Shown: positions 22,359 to 52,906 of the stretch, piece after piece
How the letters are laid out: every line of letters begins with the position of its first letter
How positions within the stretch are numbered: the first letter of the stretch is position 1
Assembly: GCF_018687785.1 (NCBI RefSeq)
Contig: NZ_LTBL01000001.1
Location: 186,001-250,000 of the forward strand
DNA: 64,000 bases
Source: Methanovulcanius yangii
GTDB lineage: Archaea > Halobacteriota > Methanomicrobia > Methanomicrobiales > Methanomicrobiaceae
Reading direction: 5' to 3'
The notes under the pieces: generated by a model
Seen by the model: the letters and a program-made list of their open reading frames with translations, nothing else
The model's database searches: none
What the model was told of the DNA's origin: nothing
Program-made: the position numbers and the translations under genes

Positions 22359-22589
22359 GGGGAGCGGCGGGAAAAAAACGTTGAAGGACGGCTGCGGCAG
22401 GCAATCGTAATCAGGCATCAGTTCCCTGCGTCATCATGAGTGTCAGTGGGGGTAACTTTCATCATCTGCCCCGCCGTGCCGCACCGTTGTCGTTTACATA
22501 TATGTCCTTCAGATCACTTATCCTCTTTCTCACCGCACGGGTGTAACCCTTACATTCTCATGCAGCATAGTACAGCCTGAGTGACCGTC

Positions 22590-25990: not shown

Positions 25991-26064
25991 GGGCTTGTGG
26001 TCTAGCTGGTTATGACATCGCCTTTACACGGCGAAGATCCCCGGTTCGAATCCGGGCAGGCCCA
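25991..26064 (+). tRNA. tRNA-Val (anticodon UAC)
   Basis: A 74-base cloverleaf. Acceptor GGGCTTG pairs with CAGGCCC (one G-U). The anticodon stem TCGCC/GGCGA encloses the loop TTTACAC with anticodon TAC at 26025-26027. The T arm CCCGGTTCGAATCCGGG is canonical. The discriminator is A and CCA is not encoded. TTTAAAGC about 20 bases upstream is a likely TATA element. Sequence composition changes to AT-rich immediately after this gene, which marks it as a probable integration site. Confidence 0.97.
26048..26058 (+). repeat. 11-bp repeat, copy 1 (in tRNA-Val T-arm/acceptor)
   Basis: GAATCCGGGCA within the tRNA recurs exactly at 31441-31451. The pair brackets the CARF-viperin-HEPN unit. It may be a worn attachment-site core, although it is short and does not reach the tRNA 3' end. 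Confidence 0.4.
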
Positions 26065-26175
26065 TCGTTTTTATGTTTTACCCAAAATAATGGCTAATTC
26101 TATCTTTGATTTGTTCAGGAAATAACAGGAGAAAAAAAGAGGAGAATTCGAGTAATCTAAATTTTGAGCCCTTCA

Positions 26176-26970
26176 TCACTGCTCTTTAAAGATATTGTAT
26201 GCAAATATCCCATCAGATGTAAGACGGTATAGAACATCTCTTCCAGATCTTTTTTCCTCAACGAGATCCCATGATTTGAGTTTTTTCATATCTCTTGACT
26301 GGTTCACCTTGTCATTACCACTCAGACGCTCTGAACTTGAGTTAATCATACCAAGTTCGATTAAGATATCCTTGTTTTTCATCCATCCGTCTCTTATATC
26401 AATATTCTTGTTACGGACTTTATTACCAAGAATTATTACAACTCTTATAAGATCCGGATAATTTTCCAGTTCACTTACTGACATTTTTGGAATTTTTAAT
26501 TCAATCAGAGAATCAGGAGTTCTGGTTATGCAGACATTGCCCCCAAGCCACACAGCCATAAGAAAAAGACTTGTGGAAAAGAGGGCTGTTCCGGCAGTAA
26601 CATTAAATGAAAAAGCTGCATTCTTGTGTTGATTACGAATTTTAAGGATGGCATCTCGAATAACATCTTGATTTAGTTCTGAAAGATGAATGAGCTTAAA
26701 CTCTCTTCGATTATCAGAATTCACGCGATGTTTTACTTTTGCAATCGCTGTTTTAATATTGGTCTTTCTCTCTTTTAGAGATTCAGAATCACCATTTTGA
26801 ATATTAAGCATCTCATTTTCGACCATAACAATTACATGCGATGGGTCGTACTTCTGAACAGAAATTGAATAGGTATTGTGGATATTTTCACCTGCACTTA
26901 TGATTAGCAGATGCTCTTGGTGATGATCTGGCATATACTTACTATTGGTTTGGACTAATAATAGTTTCAC
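26176..26970 (-). CDS. CARF-domain winged-helix regulator
   Basis: A 264-residue protein. Residues 19-150 look like a CARF Rossmann fold: first strand HLLIISAGENIHN, then after a hydrophilic stretch FNVTAGTALFSTSLFLMAVWLGG (122-145), the N-x-T-x-G-T ligand loop. The C-terminal 70 residues, with LIELGMI, RDMKKLKSWDLVEEK and YRLTSDGIFAY, form a winged helix. CARF domains typically bind cyclic oligoadenylates or other nucleotides. The start is GTG at 26970; ATG at 26934 is an alternative just before the CARF core. It is divergent, across 56 bp, from the viperin operon, which it probably controls. The gene is AT-rich. Confidence 0.8.
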   Translation of the reverse strand: MKLLLVQTNSKYMPDHHQEHLLIISAGENIHNTYSISVQKYDPSHVIVMVENEMLNIQNGDSESLKERKTNIKTAIAKVKHRVNSDNRREFKLIHLSELNQDVIRDAILKIRNQHKNAAFSFNVTAGTALFSTSLFLMAVWLGGNVCITRTPDSLIELKIPKMSVSELENYPDLIRVVIILGNKVRNKNIDIRDGWMKNKDILIELGMINSSSERLSGNDKVNQSRDMKKLKSWDLVEEKRSGRDVLYRLTSDGIFAYNIFKEQ

Positions 26971-27026
26971 ATACTATGTAATGGTTACAAAATACAATCA
27001 TCACTTCGTTTGATGACCTATGATAC
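26971..27026 (+). promoter_or_regulatory. Shared divergent promoter/operator of CARF regulator and viperin operon
   Basis: Only 56 bases separate the GTG of the CARF-wHTH gene from the ATG of the viperin gene. Both promoters must lie here or within the regulator's first codons. AT-rich elements (TTACAAAATACAA) are present, but no clear Shine-Dalgarno for either gene, which suggests leaderless transcripts. The layout is that of a regulator acting on its own promoter and on the operon. The operator sequence is not identified. Confidence 0.55.
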
Positions 27027-27896
27027 ATGTCACCAAAATCTGTCGTCAAATCTGTGAACTGGCATATTACAAACCGCTGCAATTATTCATGCCGGTTCTG
27101 TTTTGCTCAGAATCTTGGAAAGCATGAGGTATCACTTGAAGAGGGGCAAAAAATTCTAAAAAAACTTAGTAATGCCGGAATTGAAAAAATTAATTTTGCG
27201 GGAGGTGAACCGCTTCTCCATCCAAGGCTACCTGACTATTGCAAAACGGCAAAAAGTCTTGGTATGACCGTTTCAGTTACTACAAACGGTTCACGTCTTG
27301 ACCGTAAAATGATAGAATCCCTATCAGGGAATGTGGATTGGATTGCTCTCTCAGTTGATTCCTGCTTAGATACTGTAGAAGCAACTATGGGCCGTGGAAG
27401 GGGTGAACATGTTACTAACGCGCTGAATGCTGCCTTTCTGATCCATGAGGCCGACATTCGCTTGAAAGTAAATACTGTCGTAACCTCGCTGACCTGGCAG
27501 GAAAATATGAGGCCACTGATCAGGATGATGGCACCAGACCGCTGGAAAGTAATGCAGATGCTGGTAATTGAAGGTGAAAACAAGACCTCTTCAATTGGAC
27601 TTGGAATAACAAATGGACAATTCCGTGAGTTTAAAGAGCGTCATCGCTCGATTTGCCTCAGTCCGGGTGTATATCCGGTTTTTGAAACCGCGGATGATAT
27701 GGAGGGATCATATTTCATGATCACTCCTGATGGGCATGTGAAATCGGATGTCGGAAAAAAGATTACACTGTACTCTCTTGATGATGTTCTAAGAGAGGGA
27801 ATTGATACACTCGTTGATTCAGACAAATATCTGGATAGAGGGGGACTATATAATTGGAAGAATTTATGTGAGGATAATATAAAGGTGGTACTATGA
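27027..27896 (+). CDS. Viperin-family radical SAM protein (prokaryotic viperin, nucleotide dehydratase)
   Basis: A 289-residue radical SAM enzyme closely patterned on viperin. SVNWHITNRCNYSCRFCF gives the Cys18/Cys22/Cys25 cluster motif, and NFAGGEP lies at 56-62. SVDSCLDTVEATMGRGRG (109-126) corresponds to the viperin CDSF...GRG segment. RWKVMQMLVIEGEN (172-185) is the diagnostic viperin motif, and RGGLYNW occurs near the C-terminus. Viperins dehydrate CTP, or GTP/UTP in some prokaryotic members, to 3'-deoxy-3',4'-didehydro nucleotides that terminate viral RNA synthesis. The amphipathic N-terminal helix of animal viperin is absent. The next gene overlaps by ATGA. The gene is AT-rich, in an island beside tRNA-Val. 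Confidence 0.93.
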   Translation: MSPKSVVKSVNWHITNRCNYSCRFCFAQNLGKHEVSLEEGQKILKKLSNAGIEKINFAGGEPLLHPRLPDYCKTAKSLGMTVSVTTNGSRLDRKMIESLSGNVDWIALSVDSCLDTVEATMGRGRGEHVTNALNAAFLIHEADIRLKVNTVVTSLTWQENMRPLIRMMAPDRWKVMQMLVIEGENKTSSIGLGITNGQFREFKERHRSICLSPGVYPVFETADDMEGSYFMITPDGHVKSDVGKKITLYSLDDVLREGIDTLVDSDKYLDRGGLYNWKNLCEDNIKVVL

Positions 27897-30800
27897 ACAT
27901 ATCCATTCGAGAAAAATATGTCCCTTATTTTATATACGAATTACATCGACACCAGCAATATCAAGTGCTTGCAGAAAATGTTCAAAACTGGGATGACGAA
28001 AAAATATCGCAGGAAAATATAAAATCAAATCTTCTTTCACTTTTTCAATATCGAATGTTCACTGACCCTGGATTTTATCAGCATGTATTTGAAGCAATTC
28101 AAAATGATGAAATAATAATTCAGAATACCATTCGTTATCTGAAATATCTCTGGTATTCATGGACAGTGGATCCTTTATCCTATTTACAGGAACTTCCCGC
28201 AAGCAACACGGAATTTGAGGAAAGACTGGACGAGATTTGTGATAAACTGTGCACTGGATGCGAGAATTCTCTTGCAAAATATCTATACAAATATCCCCTG
28301 CATTCTGTATTGGATTATTCATTTATTCTGGAACTCCGAAACCTGTTGAAAAAGGAAAATCGAGACTTTTGGGAACTGTCCTTTCTTCAGTTGACAAGAA
28401 ATTGCGGTCCGTATTCTGATGTTGGGATTATCGCATATCTTGTAACAAAAGGACAGAAAGATCTTAAATTATGGAAAAAATTGGAACTGGAATGGCTGAA
28501 GTACTTTAACAATGAAATAACTTTTGAAAAAAACCTCTATCCAAGGTACTCGAATTTTGTGGATGATGATGAGGTTTTAGCCTCCAATGAAGAATTTGAA
28601 AAATTAGAACGATATTTCTTTTCTCCTGCTAGAAATAAAGAACCGGAAGCAAGCCTTTTCTTTTCTAAGACAAATTACTGCTTGGATTTACGTAAAAGAA
28701 TTGCTAAAGAATTCCATATTGATAATAAACCCTATTGGGAATTTATCCCACCAAAGTTTGAAGATTATCGATCTTCGGAAGAATGTTACTTCGAAGAATT
28801 TCGTGCAAATCTCATACAAGAATCACGGCCTTTTGTAATTTACCAGAAGTTTACAACAGACTTTATGAGTATTGCTGCCGAATTCTGGTTTTTATCAAAG
28901 ACAGAACCGGAAATGCTTTCTTTATTGAATCAGGAATGGGAATTTTCAACAGAGAAGATGCTGGTCTCATTTGCTGATCTGCCCTTGTCTGTTATAGGCG
29001 ATCATGGAACCTCATATCTCGATTACGGGTGCGCAGACGAGGCATTAGCGATATTTGAATATTATCTTACCTGTGCAAAAACCCCGGAAGAGCATTACCA
29101 TGGACATATGAACATAGCAGAGTGTCACCGGCTGCATAAGCAGTATGATGACGCTTCTTCTCATTATTTACAAGCAAAGGAAATCGTTGCTCCCTTCCTC
29201 GGAACAATGAATTGGCATGGTCTTGATAAGGAATTTCAGTCACCCGAAGCCTATGGGCGACTTGCCGAAATCCATATTCGTGAGATGAACTATCTTTTGA
29301 AAAAGAAAGAACTTAAAATCAATCCGAAAAAAATCCTGAAAACTTCATTGATGGCTTTCAATGAAAAAGATAGATTGGCAAATAATATTTTTAAAATTTA
29401 TCGCCGTGTCGGTCTTGGTAGAAAGGGATCAAAATTATCAGATGAATGGCACGCCTACTCTCTGAATGATAGTATAAATGAACTGAATCTGCCAAAAGAA
29501 AAAGCGGAATCTCTTCGAAAAGAACAAATTGAATTTGAAGAAATGTGGAGGCAGGTCAATGCCACTTTTGAATACAATGAAATGGATCCGATTTGGGAGG
29601 ATCGTGAGGAGCGGAAAAAGCAGTACCAGTATTTCACTAAAATCTGCAAAAATGCATTCCAAATCTCTCTAAATTCAAAATATTGTGAGAAATTGTGCAA
29701 TCTCCCAAAATTCTATCCAGAGGATATTACAATCAATCGCCAATTGAAGCTGAATTTAAATGTTGAAACGATATATCGGTCAGAGCAAGAATTCTATCTA
29801 CAGTGTATCTATGAATATGCTGAATCATTATACAAAATCGGGAATTACAAGCTATGTTCCGATCTGACCCGCGAATACCTGAGATTCTGTAAAGAGATTC
29901 ATTACTGGGATGCGAATTTGCCTGTAACTGATGACGAACTGAATAAGGATGTTAAACATCTCTTTCATTCAAACCCAAAAGACAAAAAAAACAATTCAAT
30001 TGTCGATCTTCATGCAGAATTGGTACGGGGGGAAAATTCTCCCTTTAAACAAGTCAAAGTATATCAAGATCTTTGTGCGGCATTAGGTCTATGGGGCATC
30101 TCTGCCTATGCAGGGTGTAGTTTGATTATGGAGGGTAAACTGGAGGAAGGTATGCAGATATTCTCTGATGAATTGAAACGCTTATCCTCCTTGCAGCATG
30201 AATGGGAGCTTTCACTGAGATTCGGTCATTTTATTGGCATAATAATTGAGAATGCATATTGTTCTGGTCTTGAGGTTCGGAAGAATTTATTTGAATATCT
30301 GGAAAATGCAACAATTGAGCAGTTCCCAGGGTATCCAGGTGTTTACCTTGTTTCTGATACATATCTTAGCCATTACTGGTTGCCGGAAGCGGAAATCTGG
30401 TTCAAAGGAAAGAAGCATGATCGCATTATCAAACAATTGTCATTGGATGATAAAGGAAGAATGTATCAGATTAAGGGACGCTTCTATCTGAAACGCGGTA
30501 GCATGGGTGCTGAGAAAATGCTTAGAAAAGCAGAGGAATCTCCGATCATGTCTAGACCCGGCCAAGAGATGATGTCGCTTCAGCGCGATCTTGCAAATCT
30601 GGCTCTGCTCAAAAAGGATTATTCCGGCATGAAAAAGTGCTATGTGAAGATACTTGAGTCCGGATATGAGCCGAATAATGAACCTTTAAAGAAAAAAATG
30701 GAGAGTATTCAGAATTATCTCGACAGACATCTTATATTGGATAAACTCTCATCCCCGAAGTTGGAAGAAGTAGTTAGATATTTTGAAAAGGCAGAGTTGG

Positions 30801-31336
30801 AATCCATTCAATTCTATAATTTAGAAGATTCAGACTCATCAAAGGATAAAAAGGTAGATTGTTCAGATCCTTTGAGTCATTATGCATGGGGGCTTGACAA
30901 ATATCTCTATCTTGTTTTGTGGACAAAAGTTCGGGATGATGTTTTTAGCAAAAAAATATCTGAATCAGAATACAATGATTTGAAGAATTCAAAGGAAATT
31001 TCGCGAAACTCCTGGTATCCTCCATTTGAACGTAATATATATGGTAAGTCTACCGAGAAATCACCAACTCTTGGAAATTGGAAGTATTTATTAGAGGCAT
31101 TGGATTCAGAAGCTCCTAATCAGGTAATTCTACATATGAGTAATTATCTTGATAGATTAGACCACGAACTGAAAGAAAATATTACGAAAATTGCAGGTAT
31201 TCTTCATCCTTATCGTAACGATATATGTCATGCCAAGCCAGTTTATTTGAAACCAAATGAGTTTCAAGAAAAAAGATTGAATATCGTGGGCTTATTGAAT
31301 GATCTCTTTGATAGCATGGCTGATTTAAAATTATAA
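27893..31336 (+). CDS. 1147-residue TPR-like protein with C-terminal HEPN-type RX4H motif
   Basis: A large soluble, mostly helical protein with no named family that I recognise. TPR-like helix pairs are visible around 372-435 (GCADEALAIFEYYL, NIAECHRLHKQYDDASSHY) and 870-935 (AEKMLRKAEES, LANLALLKKDYSGMKKCY). The last about 130 residues end in ILHPYRNDICHAKPVYL. Arg1108 and His1113 (31214-31231) form the R-x4-H motif, with Asn after Arg, of HEPN ribonucleases. The start overlaps the viperin stop (ATGA), with GGTGG just upstream, so the two are translated together. A plausible role is an RNA-cleaving or scaffold/sensor partner of viperin. The effector role is inference. It is strongly AT-rich. 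Confidence 0.85.
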   Translation: MNISIREKYVPYFIYELHRHQQYQVLAENVQNWDDEKISQENIKSNLLSLFQYRMFTDPGFYQHVFEAIQNDEIIIQNTIRYLKYLWYSWTVDPLSYLQELPASNTEFEERLDEICDKLCTGCENSLAKYLYKYPLHSVLDYSFILELRNLLKKENRDFWELSFLQLTRNCGPYSDVGIIAYLVTKGQKDLKLWKKLELEWLKYFNNEITFEKNLYPRYSNFVDDDEVLASNEEFEKLERYFFSPARNKEPEASLFFSKTNYCLDLRKRIAKEFHIDNKPYWEFIPPKFEDYRSSEECYFEEFRANLIQESRPFVIYQKFTTDFMSIAAEFWFLSKTEPEMLSLLNQEWEFSTEKMLVSFADLPLSVIGDHGTSYLDYGCADEALAIFEYYLTCAKTPEEHYHGHMNIAECHRLHKQYDDASSHYLQAKEIVAPFLGTMNWHGLDKEFQSPEAYGRLAEIHIREMNYLLKKKELKINPKKILKTSLMAFNEKDRLANNIFKIYRRVGLGRKGSKLSDEWHAYSLNDSINELNLPKEKAESLRKEQIEFEEMWRQVNATFEYNEMDPIWEDREERKKQYQYFTKICKNAFQISLNSKYCEKLCNLPKFYPEDITINRQLKLNLNVETIYRSEQEFYLQCIYEYAESLYKIGNYKLCSDLTREYLRFCKEIHYWDANLPVTDDELNKDVKHLFHSNPKDKKNNSIVDLHAELVRGENSPFKQVKVYQDLCAALGLWGISAYAGCSLIMEGKLEEGMQIFSDELKRLSSLQHEWELSLRFGHFIGIIIENAYCSGLEVRKNLFEYLENATIEQFPGYPGVYLVSDTYLSHYWLPEAEIWFKGKKHDRIIKQLSLDDKGRMYQIKGRFYLKRGSMGAEKMLRKAEESPIMSRPGQEMMSLQRDLANLALLKKDYSGMKKCYVKILESGYEPNNEPLKKKMESIQNYLDRHLILDKLSSPKLEEVVRYFEKAELESIQFYNLEDSDSSKDKKVDCSDPLSHYAWGLDKYLYLVLWTKVRDDVFSKKISESEYNDLKNSKEISRNSWYPPFERNIYGKSTEKSPTLGNWKYLLEALDSEAPNQVILHMSNYLDRLDHELKENITKIAGILHPYRNDICHAKPVYLKPNEFQEKRLNIVGLLNDLFDSMADLKL

Positions 31337-31361
31337 ATTATATTTTTTATTGAAAAATTAA

Positions 31362-31380
31362 CATCCAATGTAAATGGATG
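31362..31380 (+). terminator. Hairpin after the viperin-HEPN operon
   Basis: CATCCA and TGGATG (6-bp stem, 7-base loop) lie 25 bases after the stop, preceded by TATTTTTTATT. It may end or stabilise the operon transcript; the stem is short. Confidence 0.35.
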
Positions 31381-31440
31381 CGTGTTTCTTGCTGCAACAT
31401 TTTGAAAATTTATGAGTAAAGTGTTTATTGTTCCTAGTTA

Positions 31441-31451
31441 GAATCCGGGCA
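31441..31451 (+). repeat. 11-bp repeat, copy 2 (possible att remnant)
   Basis: An exact GAATCCGGGCA match to the tRNA-Val T-arm at 26048-26058. It is a GC-rich word inside AT-rich DNA. It falls just after the viperin-HEPN operon and just before the next gene, as an attachment scar would. No integrase is visible. Confidence 0.35.
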
Positions 31452-31457
31452 ATTCTA

Positions 31458-31637
31458 TTAATATTTACTCAGTAGTCCTAAGGCAATACCTCCAATACAA
31501 ACTATCCATGAGAATATGCCAACCGGGCCTGTATCATATTTTGCTATGGCAGTTCCTACTGCTAATAGTGAAAAAAACAGCCAGACAACCGTCAGGAATG
31601 AAGGGTTGATATGATTCGAATTATGAAACATTGACAT
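31458..31637 (-). CDS. Small two-helix membrane protein
   Basis: A 59-residue peptide with two hydrophobic helices (about 14-32 and 39-57) joined by AKYDTGPVG. The ATG at 31637 has a fair Shine-Dalgarno (AAAAAGGAAATTGAC before it); a TTG eight codons upstream is less likely. No homology is recognised. It lies downstream of the GIY-YIG gene on the same strand, separated by a perfect inverted repeat. In defence islands, short membrane peptides are sometimes effectors, but nothing here shows this. Confidence 0.55.
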   Translation of the reverse strand: MSMFHNSNHINPSFLTVVWLFFSLLAVGTAIAKYDTGPVGIFSWIVCIGGIALGLLSKY

Positions 31638-31660
31638 GTCAATTTCCTTTTTTAATTTCA

Positions 31661-31684
31661 AAAGGATTCATGTTTGAATCCTTT
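31661..31684 (-). terminator. Perfect 10-bp inverted repeat (terminator or operator)
   Basis: AAAGGATTCA and TGAATCCTTT are exact complements with a 4-base loop TGTT. It lies between the GIY-YIG stop (31702) and the start of the small membrane gene (31637). It could end the nuclease transcript or serve as operator for the membrane peptide. Confidence 0.5.
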
Positions 31685-31701
31685 GTTCTTCAATTTGTTT
31701 T

Positions 31702-31965
31702 TTAGAGTTTATCGTTATACTTCGGGAACCTTCCTTGGTTACGCTTGTATCTTGCAAGATCCTCAGTTTCGTGCTTTAATGCGGAGTCCTGGGTGCGTTT
31801 TGTAGAACTGGAATAATTGGTAAATCGCTTTCCGTCTCTTTCATGCTCTGCAATACGCCTGTCTAAGTCATTAGTAATTCCCATGTAGACAATTTTGTTC
31901 CTGTCACGAAGTGTATAATTCACGGTGTCTCTTTTTTGCGACAAGTAATCACCAGCCCCCCTCAT
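31702..31965 (-). CDS. GIY-YIG family nuclease
   Basis: An 87-residue single-domain protein. The GIY-equivalent strand is VNYTLRDRNKIVYMGITND, with a Tyr at each motif. RRIAEHERDG supplies the catalytic Arg region. HETEDLARYKRNQGRFPKYND gives the conserved Glu and the terminal PKYN, so the domain looks complete. Small proteins of this kind nick or cut DNA in mobile elements, phages and repair; the role here is unknown. No clear Shine-Dalgarno precedes the ATG. It lies in the AT-rich island between the HEPN operon and the second CARF gene. The 227 bases upstream are AT-rich and non-coding. Confidence 0.8.
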   Translation of the reverse strand: MRGAGDYLSQKRDTVNYTLRDRNKIVYMGITNDLDRRIAEHERDGKRFTNYSSSTKRTQDSALKHETEDLARYKRNQGRFPKYNDKL

Positions 31966-32192
31966 TTTATCGCGAGGTTTCTGATAAAAATCTCCGTGAA
32001 GAAAATTTCTGTCTTAGCTTTCTATATTGAATGCCGTATATTGTGAGATTAATTCCCGGAATTCTTTGTCACAGAATAGATATTGTTAATATGGTAAATA
32101 TTTTGCTCACTTATTAATATTAGCAAATAATAGTATTTAGCATAACTCATTTTTTAACAAAATTCATCTATGTTTAAAACAACAGGGAAATT

Positions 32193-33089
32193 ATGAGAAA
32201 TGATTTAGGGAAAATTGTTTATATCGTCCCTCTTGGTCATGAAAGGGACCGTGCAATAGCCCCATTTCATGATCGAAAAGCAGACCTTGTTTATCTGGTA
32301 ATAAATGACGAAATTCCAGAGAAGGGCGGAAAAGACGATCAGATGCAGAGAAAACAGGATATATATACAGATTTAGTTGTCAATGATCTTAAAGAGATGA
32401 ATATTCCGGTGAAAATTATTCGGACGGATATGTTTGATCTTAAGATCCTGATCAATACTCTTGCAAAGCTAATCATTATGGAAAAAGAGAAAAAGAGCAC
32501 TATTCGAATAAATATGTCTGCATCAGGCCGTTTTACCTCTGTTGCAGCCTCAATAGCAGGAATGGCATATGATGTATCAGTTTATTACGTGCACTCAAAT
32601 GGTTTTTCTGAGACTAAAGAAGACCTTCTGGAACATGGTGTTAGTATCTGTTCTTATGATTCAATCTGGATTGAAGAATTCTCAAATTATAGATTTGAAC
32701 TGCCAACTGAGACGGAGATTTGCATATTGGAAATGTTATATGAAAAATGTCGTGACAAGCATAAATGGGCGACAACCAAGGAATTGTGCGACCTTCTTCA
32801 CGATAAATATCCTGACAAATACGAGAAATTACCAGTTTTCCGAGATGTAGATACTAAACATTTTCCAAAAGATGAAAAAGACAGACTCCGAAAACTTCAG
32901 AGCAAACTTCTGATGAAATTAAACGGATCGATTATGAGGAAACTTGTTGCAAAAAAATATGCTGACCGAAATGATCCAAATGAATCATCTGTTAAATATA
33001 AAATAACTTCATCAGGCGAATATGCCCTCCATTTGTCAGGTTTTGGTGAAAAATTGAAAGTAGAGGATTATTTAAACCCGATCCCCTAA
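32193..33089 (+). CDS. CARF-like winged-helix protein (DUF6293/HFX_2341-type regulator)
   Basis: A 298-residue protein. The N-terminal CARF-like fold starts KIVYIVPLGHERDRAI, and the ligand loop is RINMSASGRFTSVAASIAG (105-123). The C-terminal half (about 170-290) is a winged helix: TETEICILEMLYEK, LRKLQSKLLMKLNGSIMRKLVAKKY and KYKITSSGEYAL. It matches the archaeal DUF6293/HFX_2341 group of CARF-wHTH proteins. It is a second, diverged relative of the regulator at 26176-26970. AGGGA lies a few bases before the ATG. The target is unknown; the viperin operon or the neighbouring nuclease are candidates. Confidence 0.85.
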   Translation: MRNDLGKIVYIVPLGHERDRAIAPFHDRKADLVYLVINDEIPEKGGKDDQMQRKQDIYTDLVVNDLKEMNIPVKIIRTDMFDLKILINTLAKLIIMEKEKKSTIRINMSASGRFTSVAASIAGMAYDVSVYYVHSNGFSETKEDLLEHGVSICSYDSIWIEEFSNYRFELPTETEICILEMLYEKCRDKHKWATTKELCDLLHDKYPDKYEKLPVFRDVDTKHFPKDEKDRLRKLQSKLLMKLNGSIMRKLVAKKYADRNDPNESSVKYKITSSGEYALHLSGFGEKLKVEDYLNPIP

Positions 33090-33348
33090 AATCGTCATAA
33101 TTTACCCTTAATACGCTAGAAAGAGTGCGATGACCCCATCATTTGCTTTAAGCGATGGAAAGAAAATATTCAATACGACTTGTAATGCCAATAATAGGGG
33201 CAAATTATGATTTACATTAATTTAGACATTTTTTACAAATTGTTCTGGTGTAGAGTGAAAATATCTCAATTTCTTGATGTCTTCTCCTAAGTTATTGGGG
33301 AAATAGAGGAAATTTCAGGGAACCTTGGGAGGTGGACCTCAATGGTTC

Positions 33349-33828
33349 TCACCTCACCGGAATACATATCTGTGTCAGGATCTCCTCTAACGGAACTTCC
33401 GCCGGGTCGTTGAGATAGATCTCCCGGATGGGTCCGGTGATTACCTTGTCATGCTCCTCTATCCAGGCATAGAGAGCTTCGTACGCAGGAGTGACGCTCT
33501 CGTAGGGGCCGCGGTGGACGACGCATGCCACGGTCTCGGTCGGGATCTCGTAGCAGGTGATCTCTTCGTTCTCCTCGGTCGGCCCTGAAATGGGAAGGAC
33601 GACCTCGACATCGGCGCATTCGTTCTTGTCCGCCTCCATTGCCTCCTCGGGCGTCATCTCGTGGCAGATGAACATCGGCGGGCCGGTAATGTCCAGTCCC
33701 TTCTCCTCAGCATAACAGCAGAGCTCGGGGATCATCTCGGCAATCAGGCGGTACGGGCCACGTCGCCTGGTGCAGATGACGGTGTGGCGGGGGCTCTTCT
33801 TTTCCGTGATTCGATACATGGTCCTCAT
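33349..33828 (-). CDS. GyrI-like small-molecule-binding domain protein
   Basis: A 159-residue stand-alone GyrI-like/SOUL-fold domain. Both halves of the duplicated fold carry the RxGPY signature: TRRRGPYRLIAEMIPEL near the N-terminus and VVHRGPYESVTPAYEAL near 110-125, and an EIYLNDPAEVP segment closes the domain. Such proteins bind or hydrolyse small cationic or drug-like compounds or act as effector domains of AraC regulators; no DNA-binding domain is present here. Sequence composition returns to GC-rich, marking the end of the island. An ATG three codons downstream (33819) is also possible. Confidence 0.88.
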   Translation of the reverse strand: MRTMYRITEKKSPRHTVICTRRRGPYRLIAEMIPELCCYAEEKGLDITGPPMFICHEMTPEEAMEADKNECADVEVVLPISGPTEENEEITCYEIPTETVACVVHRGPYESVTPAYEALYAWIEEHDKVITGPIREIYLNDPAEVPLEEILTQICIPVR

Positions 33829-51553: not shown

Positions 51554-52906
51554 CTATTTAAGAATTCCAGTATATTTCATGAACATTATTAGAGAAGTAA
51601 TGAGCAGTGTCAATGATATCATCGATCCAATACTGAGAAAGTGGGACAAATTTTCTTTAAAGAAGAAATATACAAAAGAAAAAATTGAAATTAAAAAGAA
51701 TATTTTAGTATACTCATTACAAAAGTATGCAAAAAACAAAGGTAAGAAGAAAATTAATAATAACCAACCAAAATATGAAAATATTTCCTTATTGGTCCGC
51801 TTTAAGATAATCTCTATCTTATCACTACTTATTTTAGCAGTCCCGTCTAACTCACTTTTATATGGTGTTTCAATTGCTTTCTCTTCTGGTATCAATAAAG
51901 GAGGATAAACTTCTATCTCGGTAGAATAGCTCTCAAATGGATAATAAAATCCATTTGATTTTGGGATGATCCATTCTTTGAAGTCAATTTTACTATTAGC
52001 ACTGATATCTTTTGTTGAATTTATTTGTTCATCGGCAGAATAATATTTGAATTGAATCTTAGATATTTGTGTTTCATTTAAACTGACTGTGATTTCTGGT
52101 AGTACCTTTAAATTTTCAGATATTTTTCCCGGATAAATGTCATCGATTTTAATATCAGCTTTTACAAAAACAGGTCTAAAGTAGATTTCCAGTGATTTTT
52201 CTTCTTTTCCAATAGTTTTCCTTTGAATAATTAAATAATAGGATTCATTAATCTCTCTAAAAATATAATAAAATTCATCTGTATTTTTATTGAAAACTAC
52301 TGCAATACCTTCTCCATAGATATACAGAAAATTCTCAGAAATAATTAGATCAAGAGTATCTTCGATTTTATTTTCTCCAACGAAAATTGGCCACTTTCCA
52401 AGTTCAAATATGAATGGGGAAACGTGGTTAATATTTTCATTTTTAATTTTATATTTGACTTTAAAATTGGCTTGTTTACCAATTTTTTGAGTTAAAAATG
52501 AATTAATCCCATCTGTTCTGGTCTTGTATGTGTTTATAGAAGATGTATTCTGAATCTTATCTTGATCAAAATTTGAAATGGTTGTTTTCTCTTCACTTAA
52601 GTCTGGAAAATTTCCATCATTTCTTTCAGGAGTACCTATTGAAAATGTTGTATTTTCGTCTGTGACAGTTATGCCATACAATAAATATTCGAATTCAATA
52701 TTTTCATCTGTATGATTTAATATGTCCCCTCCGTAGGTGTTTTCGCCTATTTGGTAGGATCCTTGTTGGGACACAATTATTGGTATATCATCATACTGGA
52801 ATACTGGCTTTTCATTTTTATTGTAAATTAAGTTTGGATTTGAAGACGCAGATGCAATCAAGCTAAAAAGAATTATTAAAATCGCAATTGGGGAGTAATA
52901 TTTCAT
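51554..52906 (-). CDS. AT-rich membrane protein, possibly DUF4436-like; likely acquired
   Basis: A 450-residue protein whose codon use is strongly AT-rich, unlike both neighbours. A signal peptide (SPIAILIILFSLIASASS) is followed by a large beta-rich ectodomain (about 20-370) with NxS/T sites. The segment FYYPFESYSTEIEVYP recalls the PFDxY motif of DUF4436-type membrane proteins. Three helices near 380-450 end the chain (GWLLLIFFLPLFFAYF, ISIFSFVYFFF, MISLTLLITSLIMFM). The family is uncertain. It sits alone between GC-rich operons and is a candidate recent acquisition. Confidence 0.72.
   Translation of the reverse strand: MKYYSPIAILIILFSLIASASSNPNLIYNKNEKPVFQYDDIPIIVSQQGSYQIGENTYGGDILNHTDENIEFEYLLYGITVTDENTTFSIGTPERNDGNFPDLSEEKTTISNFDQDKIQNTSSINTYKTRTDGINSFLTQKIGKQANFKVKYKIKNENINHVSPFIFELGKWPIFVGENKIEDTLDLIISENFLYIYGEGIAVVFNKNTDEFYYIFREINESYYLIIQRKTIGKEEKSLEIYFRPVFVKADIKIDDIYPGKISENLKVLPEITVSLNETQISKIQFKYYSADEQINSTKDISANSKIDFKEWIIPKSNGFYYPFESYSTEIEVYPPLLIPEEKAIETPYKSELDGTAKISSDKIEIILKRTNKEIFSYFGWLLLIFFLPLFFAYFCNEYTKIFFLISIFSFVYFFFKENLSHFLSIGSMISLTLLITSLIMFMKYTGILK

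Follow-up and report, generated by a model that had tools for sequence, protein, structure and literature searches.

Viperin is common to animals and archaea, and prokaryotic viperins make chain-terminating nucleotides. CARF proteins with a winged helix are ligand-responsive regulators, and HEPN domains with an RX4H motif are RNases. In the methanogen Methanovulcanius yangii a viperin gene lies between genes whose products carry signs of both, which raises the question of whether this viperin acts alone or belongs to a regulated defence system. We analysed a 64,000-nucleotide stretch of contig NZ_LTBL01000001.1 (positions 186,001 to 250,000, hereafter the window), in which the viperin gene is divergent from a gene for the CARF regulator Csa3 and overlaps a gene for a large TPR protein with a HEPN-like C-terminus. 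We read the three genes as a horizontally moved archaeal viperin defence cassette, in which Csa3 would control viperin and a TPR-HEPN RNase, and give this reading a probability of roughly 0.6.

Genes of the cassette

The three genes and the relevant parts of the large protein are listed here by window position.
26176 to 26934, minus strand: Csa3, a CARF and winged helix regulator (the listed open reading frame (ORF) reaches 26970; PADLOC model PDLC02909, E 3.5e-73)
27027 to 27896, plus strand: prokaryotic viperin, a radical SAM protein with CNYSCRFC and GGEP motifs (NF038283; viperins in PDB)
27893 to 31336, plus strand: 1147-amino-acid TPR scaffold protein with a HEPN-like C-terminus (PADLOC model PDLC02907, 1.2e-25; Foldseek)
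30755 to 31321, plus strand: HEPN-like C-terminal domain of this protein, residues ~955-1143 (AlphaFold2 model; calibrated hhalign)
31214 to 31231, plus strand: RX4H motif RNDICH (R1108, N1109, H1113), the predicted RNase active site (invariant in 24 of 24 non-redundant homologues)

The original prediction, made from the sequence of the window, had named five ORFs, an ATGA overlap and a terminal RX4H motif. All of them were found at the places given; the coordinates of the five ORFs are correct and their reading frames are open. The viperin stop and the start of the TPR gene share the 4 bp ATGA (27893-27896). The viperin scored 258.5 bits against the NCBIfam model NF038283 (curated cut-off 180), matched PADLOC model PDLC02903 at 1.2e-75 and matched the viperins in PDB at E ~1e-40. 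The cysteines of the radical-SAM motif CxxxCxxC (C18, C22 and C25) and the GGEP motif (G59-P62) are invariant in the viperin alignment. In Csa3 the match to PDLC02909 spans almost the whole protein, and an ArsR-type winged helix was matched at residues 224-254. The listed Csa3 ORF begins with GTG at 26970, and residue 13 of this ORF is an ATG at 26934. The true start is probably this ATG, because the homologous protein of another genome (G091) starts there (83% identity over residues 13-264) and the spacer to viperin is thereby restored to the 92-94 bp seen in relatives.

Csa3, viperin and the TPR-HEPN protein form a recurring unit

The 394 genomes of the phylum were searched with the PADLOC TPR model, and 15 further genomes were found in which the large gene adjoins viperin and Csa3. 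A search of this kind selects for the TPR gene, and the census was therefore repeated starting from viperin. It gave 29 strong loci, of which 16 contained the large protein, 6 contained Csa3 only and 7 contained neither. Csa3 was present at all 16 loci with TPR-HEPN beside viperin and at 6 of the 13 viperin loci without it (Fisher p=0.0011). When the viperin alignment was run against 84,980 species genomes, 80 loci were obtained; Csa3 was present in 16 of these and the large protein in 12 of the 16, one of the 12 being cut by a contig end and one broken. Two records, labelled Bacteroidales (L060) and Acholeplasmataceae (L062), are probably mis-binned methanogen contigs. All 12 of the TPR-protein homologues that were aligned match the PADLOC TPR model.

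In a tree of 97 viperins, all 29 Csa3-linked first viperins fell in one clade of 39 rows (SH-aLRT 100), and within it a few losses or gains of Csa3 have occurred. None of the 58 viperins outside this clade had Csa3 beside it. Judged by this gene content, the trio is a real recurring unit that is found across methanogen families. The expectation that the CARF and large-protein genes are kept next to viperin was thus confirmed in other genomes.

The ancestry of the trio in the window is mosaic. Its Csa3 is nearest to that of G091 (83%), while its viperin is nearest to those of Methanocorpusculum-like contigs (79-80%). The TPR-HEPN protein of the window has diverged, with about 15-23% identity to its relatives and, over long stretches, no more than about 25% to any of them. 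In Methanosarcinaceae a VakA-type kinase gene lies between viperin and TPR-HEPN, and some of these loci contain a second viperin; no kinase is present in the island of the window.

A related arrangement was found on a Lokiarchaeota contig (L112, 6669-11653). Here viperin and a 1036-amino-acid TPR protein ending in RNPSGH lie beside a different, divergent CARF gene, whose product has an ArsR-type helix-turn-helix (HTH), matches PADLOC CARF_m5 at 1e-14 and belongs to another subfamily than Csa3. By its gene order, this locus is a parallel CARF-regulated version of the trio in Asgard archaea.

The HEPN-like C-terminus of the large protein

Only six columns were invariant among 24 non-redundant homologues (no pair above 90% identity; C-termini 28% identical on average between pairs): D58, L345, R1108, N1109, H1113 and N1136. 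HEPN domains follow the rule RX4-6H with a polar residue after the R (PMC3710099). R1108-N1109-xxx-H1113 fits this rule, and RNxxxH is present in all 24 sequences. Conservation along the entire protein is highest at positions that include R, N and H, which is the pattern expected of an active site. The domain is also present in three unrelated proteins, all encoded far from viperin, in which R(G/N)xxxH is kept (L055 8533-10545, L057 7853-9700 and L058 7240-9207); those of L055 and L058 are YaaA-like with HEAT repeats.

Comparison of the C-terminal domain with curated HEPN families by hhalign gave E-values of 0.0033 for Apea, 0.0043 for Swt1, 0.024 for DUF4145 and 0.33 for LA2681, in a test of low power where known HEPN pairs gave 0.0016-0.54 and 16 controls taken from other parts of the locus gave 0.21-0.67. 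All four alignments centre on the catalytic motif, and three of the four matches (0.0033-0.024) are better than all 16 controls and comparable in strength to those between known HEPN families. Within the low power of the test, the domain behaves like a member of the HEPN superfamily. In the AlphaFold2 model the domain folds confidently into a bundle of helices (pLDDT 82.3, pTM 0.84), and the motif lies where a long helix ends. The full-length model is of low confidence (62.9) and is useful solely for its TPR-like superhelix; the rest of the large protein resembles TPR superhelices in Foldseek (E 8e-5). We call the C-terminus HEPN-like and likely to be active as an RNase, with the HEPN fold itself presumptive. 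The HEPN end claimed in the original prediction was strengthened by motif invariance and profile matches, and its structural check gave the helical bundle, for which the PDB comparison is considered with the alternatives below.

The island was inserted at tRNA-Val

The island and the repeats at its borders were located as follows.
26075 to 33344: AT-rich inserted island of 7.27 kb (BLASTN against the congener loci L224 and L225; drop in G+C content)
25991 to 26064, plus strand: tRNA-Val(TAC), where the island is inserted (ARAGORN)
26048 to 26058, plus strand: 11-bp repeat GAATCCGGGCA, left copy in the 3' part of the tRNA gene (weak; two copies in the window were reached in 1 of 100 shuffles)
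31441 to 31451, plus strand: 11-bp repeat GAATCCGGGCA, right copy just after the trio (weak; a possible remnant attachment (att) site)

The G+C content is 0.366 within the island, against 0.61 and 0.58 in its flanks; it falls right after tRNA-Val and recovers near 33.3 kb. Two congeners (L224 and L225) have an empty site, in which tRNA-Val is followed after 60-74 bp by a GyrI-like gene. In the window this gene lies at 33349-33828, and the BLASTN alignment to the congeners skips from about 26074 to about 33345. Since tRNA-Val adjoins the GyrI-like gene in the congeners, the window holds a 7.27-kb insertion, and from these empty sites we conclude that the island was inserted recently just 3' of tRNA-Val. 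The tRNA-linked AT-rich island of the original prediction was borne out in this way, with wider bounds than those first drawn (26075 to about 33344).

Other loci of the family are also linked to tRNA genes. The trio of G091 is flanked by two near-identical tRNA-Val(CAC) genes, a Methanimicrococcus trio with a broken large gene (L076) lies between two tRNA-Glu genes, and a further trio (L047) is near tRNA-Val(TAC). One congener (G395) has a related Csa3 and viperin pair on another contig. A search for tRNA att repeats in the window found none beyond the 11-bp copy, and no integrase was found in the island; the G091 island contains an insertion sequence (IS) transposase. Viral contigs gave two weak radical-SAM matches only (25-30% identity), the plasmids searched contained no viperin above 60% identity, and the phages searched contained no relative of the TPR protein. 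These near-empty searches thus point to neither a virus nor a plasmid as carrier.

The island also carries two further genes, which had been proposed as members of the system.
31702 to 31965, minus strand: small GIY-YIG protein, a passenger (PF01541, 25.0 bits against a cut-off of 22.6)
32193 to 33089, plus strand: second CARF and winged helix protein of the HFX_2341/DUF6293 family, probably a passenger (PF19810, 95 bits; PF22665, 34 bits)

Their membership was not supported by conservation. Both appear to lie outside the conserved unit, because none of 20 neighbourhoods searched contained a relative of the GIY-YIG gene and one relative of the second CARF protein, which combines HFX_2341_N with DUF6293_C, was found near a trio (L080). 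Another AT-rich patch of the window (51554-52906, about 35% G+C) holds a single ORF of 450 amino acids with hydrophobic C-terminal stretches and is probably a foreign insert.

Csa3, a candidate operator and the signal

Csa3 is divergent from viperin in nearly all loci and co-directional in two. The conserved residues of its CARF domain are G27, T33, E51, N123 and G127, within the patterns SAG...T and N-x-(S/T)-(G/A)-G-T. No match to the solved Csa3 was obtained with phmmer, and for neither CARF protein did a search of PDB find a relative. One element was noted between the divergent genes.
26977 to 26989: palindrome TGTAATGGTTACA, candidate operator in the divergent intergenic region (0 expected in shuffles)

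A counterpart, TGTAACGGTTACA, is present in G091 (L056), and imperfect forms occur in two more genomes (L042 and L043). The intergenic region of G091 is similar throughout, so the recurrence of the palindrome is moderate evidence for an operator at most. Other lineages have different inverted repeats between Csa3 and viperin. A second copy of the palindrome, TGTAANNNTTACA (TGTAACCCTTACA), lies at 22542-22554 of the window, upstream of an ORF at 22581, and again none is expected by shuffling.

To ask which signal Csa3 might read, we considered the hosts. The Cas10 palm domain (PF22335) was not matched in the genome of the window (G000) or in 13 of the 15 other genomes with the trio; it was found in 2 of the 16, and Cas1 in 16 of 16. 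The same search was positive in controls from Methanosarcina, Methanocaldococcus, Sulfolobus and Thermotoga. Because this domain was not found, most hosts are unlikely to use a type III messenger, and in these 14 genomes cyclic oligoadenylate made by a type III CRISPR complex is probably not the signal.

Proposed mechanism

We infer that the operon is induced via Csa3, that its two effectors act in parallel against the synthesis of viral RNA and against RNA as such, and that the TPR part restrains the RNase. As a repressor or an activator, Csa3 would bind the intergenic region, perhaps at the palindrome, and would be switched by a nucleotide or RNA-end signal arising on infection. Viperin would then make 3'-deoxy-3',4'-didehydro-NTP (ddhNTP), which would stop the viral RNA polymerase. 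The TPR superhelix may serve as a sensing or oligomerising scaffold that keeps the HEPN RNase inactive until infection. Once released, the RNase would cut RNA and halt the virus or the cell. Both arms would thus be aimed at a single target, the synthesis and the stability of RNA.

Alternative explanations

Several results weigh against this reading of the cassette. Taken singly, the matches to HEPN families are weak, and hits of Pfam HEPN_Apea and HEPN_Swt1 on the C-termini are sub-threshold. Foldseek of the C-terminal model against PDB gave no significant match; HEPN entries (Csm6 4rgp, 4nqf and 7ae6) appeared no higher than ranks 9, 23 and 35, at E 3.6-5.5, and a sequence search of PDB with the C-terminal profile gave nothing HEPN. 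Six census loci keep Csa3 and viperin without TPR-HEPN, so the pair of regulator and viperin does not need the HEPN arm. Divergent signal synthases may escape the single Cas10 model. In Saccharolobus, Csa3a binds cyclic tetra-adenylate (cA4), yet its DNA binding is cA4-independent (PMC8699464, PMC8844856), and a simple ligand switch may therefore not hold.

The structural comparison and two nearby positions at which the window protein departs from its family, W999 for K and D1002 for E, would also suit a C-terminal domain that is related to HEPN in structure but lacks RNase activity, in a TPR protein that only senses infection or recruits viperin. We consider this unlikely, since no residue of the protein is more conserved than R, N and H across the 24 sequences. 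That unrelated defence genes share the island by chance holds for the two passengers, the GIY-YIG and second CARF genes; for the trio it is refuted by recurrence across methanogen families and by the 4-bp gene overlap, and as a general account it is very improbable. 

The remaining alternatives concern the signal. If Csa3 answered to cyclic oligoadenylate, the cassette would be an accessory arm of type III immunity. The binding of cA4 by Csa3a and the Cas10 palm in 2 of the 16 trio genomes are in its favour, but 14 of 16 genomes, that of the window included, lacked the domain although the controls were positive, and we hold this to be quite improbable. Equally improbable is a scheme where the viperin product is itself the signal, with ddhNTP or a by-product bound by Csa3 or the TPR protein and HEPN as the killer. 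CARF domains bind nucleotides, and NTP pools could be tuned by the VakA kinase that some loci contain; in known relatives, however, the CARF pocket is suited to oligonucleotides, and we know of no precedent for a viperin product acting as a messenger.

The HEPN RNase could instead make the signal, with 2',3'-cyclic phosphate RNA ends from its cleavage, or from that of another RNase, binding the CARF pocket of Csa3 and inducing the operon in a Cas10-independent positive feedback. The CARF domain of RtcR binds tRNA fragments ending in 2',3'-cyclic phosphate (PMC7790460), and HEPN RNases leave such ends (PMC3710099), which together would make an RNA-damage signal attractive. The constant presence of Csa3 at the 16 TPR-HEPN loci of the census, the rarity of Cas10 and the CARF-HTH gene of another subfamily beside the Lokiarchaeota TPR-HEPN point the same way. 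The binding of cA4 by Csa3a, and the presence of Csa3 beside viperins without a HEPN partner, argue against it, and the proposal is a tentative one that we would not expect to hold. Equally tentative is its wider form, a Cas10-independent, CARF-gated viperin immunity with two effectors, in which CARF reads the HEPN-made ends in a feed-forward manner and the same design arose in Lokiarchaeota with another CARF-HTH regulator.

Relation to known systems

The original prediction knew of no described system with this composition, and here it was mistaken. Viperin-TPR is the sole defence system type exclusive to archaea in the data of PMC12988326, which cites Bernheim et al. 2021. The PADLOC models for viperin (pVip), TPR, Csa3 and VakA sit in one number range. 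Because of this report and these models, the composition must be regarded as already described. As in the PADLOC viperin-TPR system, viperin lies beside a large TPR protein, and the proteins of the window match the pVip, TPR and Csa3 models; the TPR protein is a divergent member of this type (88 bits). The HEPN end, in contrast, is unnamed in the PADLOC label and in PMC12988326.

In the open-access literature and the PADLOC labels we did not find the HEPN end, the obligatory Csa3, the Lokiarchaeota CARF-HTH version or the lack of Cas10 in 14 of 16 hosts described. No open-access paper was found that joins viperin with Csa3 or with this HEPN, in a search that covered neither Shomar et al. 2024 nor Bernheim et al. 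2021, so that earlier priority for Csa3 or HEPN is possible. The only open-access paper containing both "viperin" and "Csa3" names Csa3b in the title of a reference, and what it says on HEPN relates to a different system.

Other systems share parts of the cassette. VakA-type viperins and viperin-kinase fusions belong to the same enzyme family, and VakA-like kinases occur in the Methanosarcinaceae loci, whereas the island of the window has none. Csa3a and Csa3b of Saccharolobus likewise combine CARF with a winged helix and are divergent from the genes they presumably control; those are cas loci, whereas here viperin is adjoined and Cas10 is mostly absent. LA2681-type proteins also have TPRs fused to a HEPN domain with RX4H (Anantharaman et al. 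2013, PMC3710099), but the profile match to them is weak (E 0.33, with the motif aligned) and no link to viperin or CARF is described in that paper. The CARF-HEPN nucleases Csm6 and Csx1 place CARF sensing and HEPN cleavage in one pathway; here CARF and HEPN belong to two different proteins, with CARF fused to a DNA-binding domain. An ancillary module of type III CRISPR is recognised by Cas10 in the genome, and none was matched in that of the window.

Other gene neighbourhoods of viperins

The loci examined contain further arrangements. TPR proteins adjoining viperin in Dehalococcoidia/Chloroflexi were considered and rejected, being ordinary TPR proteins without a HEPN end. On the Lokiarchaeota contig the TPR gene is followed by a gene for a 1311-amino-acid protein with leucine-rich-like repeats. 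Two Csa3 and viperin pairs without TPR-HEPN (L191 8940-13944 and L066 8350-13293) adjoin a convergent trio that is alike in size and order and encodes a PLD-like protein, an unknown protein of ~385 amino acids and an SF1 helicase (domains checked in L191). In L068 (8446-9714), Csa3 and viperin are followed by a VakA-type kinase and a weak match to an NT5C-like nucleotidase, a possible nucleotide-processing chain. Among viperins of the same clade that lack Csa3 (L072-L075, L086, L187, L192, L193 and L198), several have a companion of 541-591 amino acids with no Pfam match.

Significance

The composition of the cassette is known, and its functional reading, with an RNase end and a constant regulator, appears to be new. 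An archaeal viperin that moves together with a predicted RNase and with a regulator that senses nucleotides would be one arm of a regulated, two-pronged, RNA-directed defence and not a lone enzyme. The conserved RNxxxH offers a single-residue handle on the function of the viperin-TPR system, which is found only in archaea. If Csa3 does work without Cas10, archaeal CARF signalling must use another messenger. One small regulator, one operator and a set of ligands to try would allow a direct test of this.

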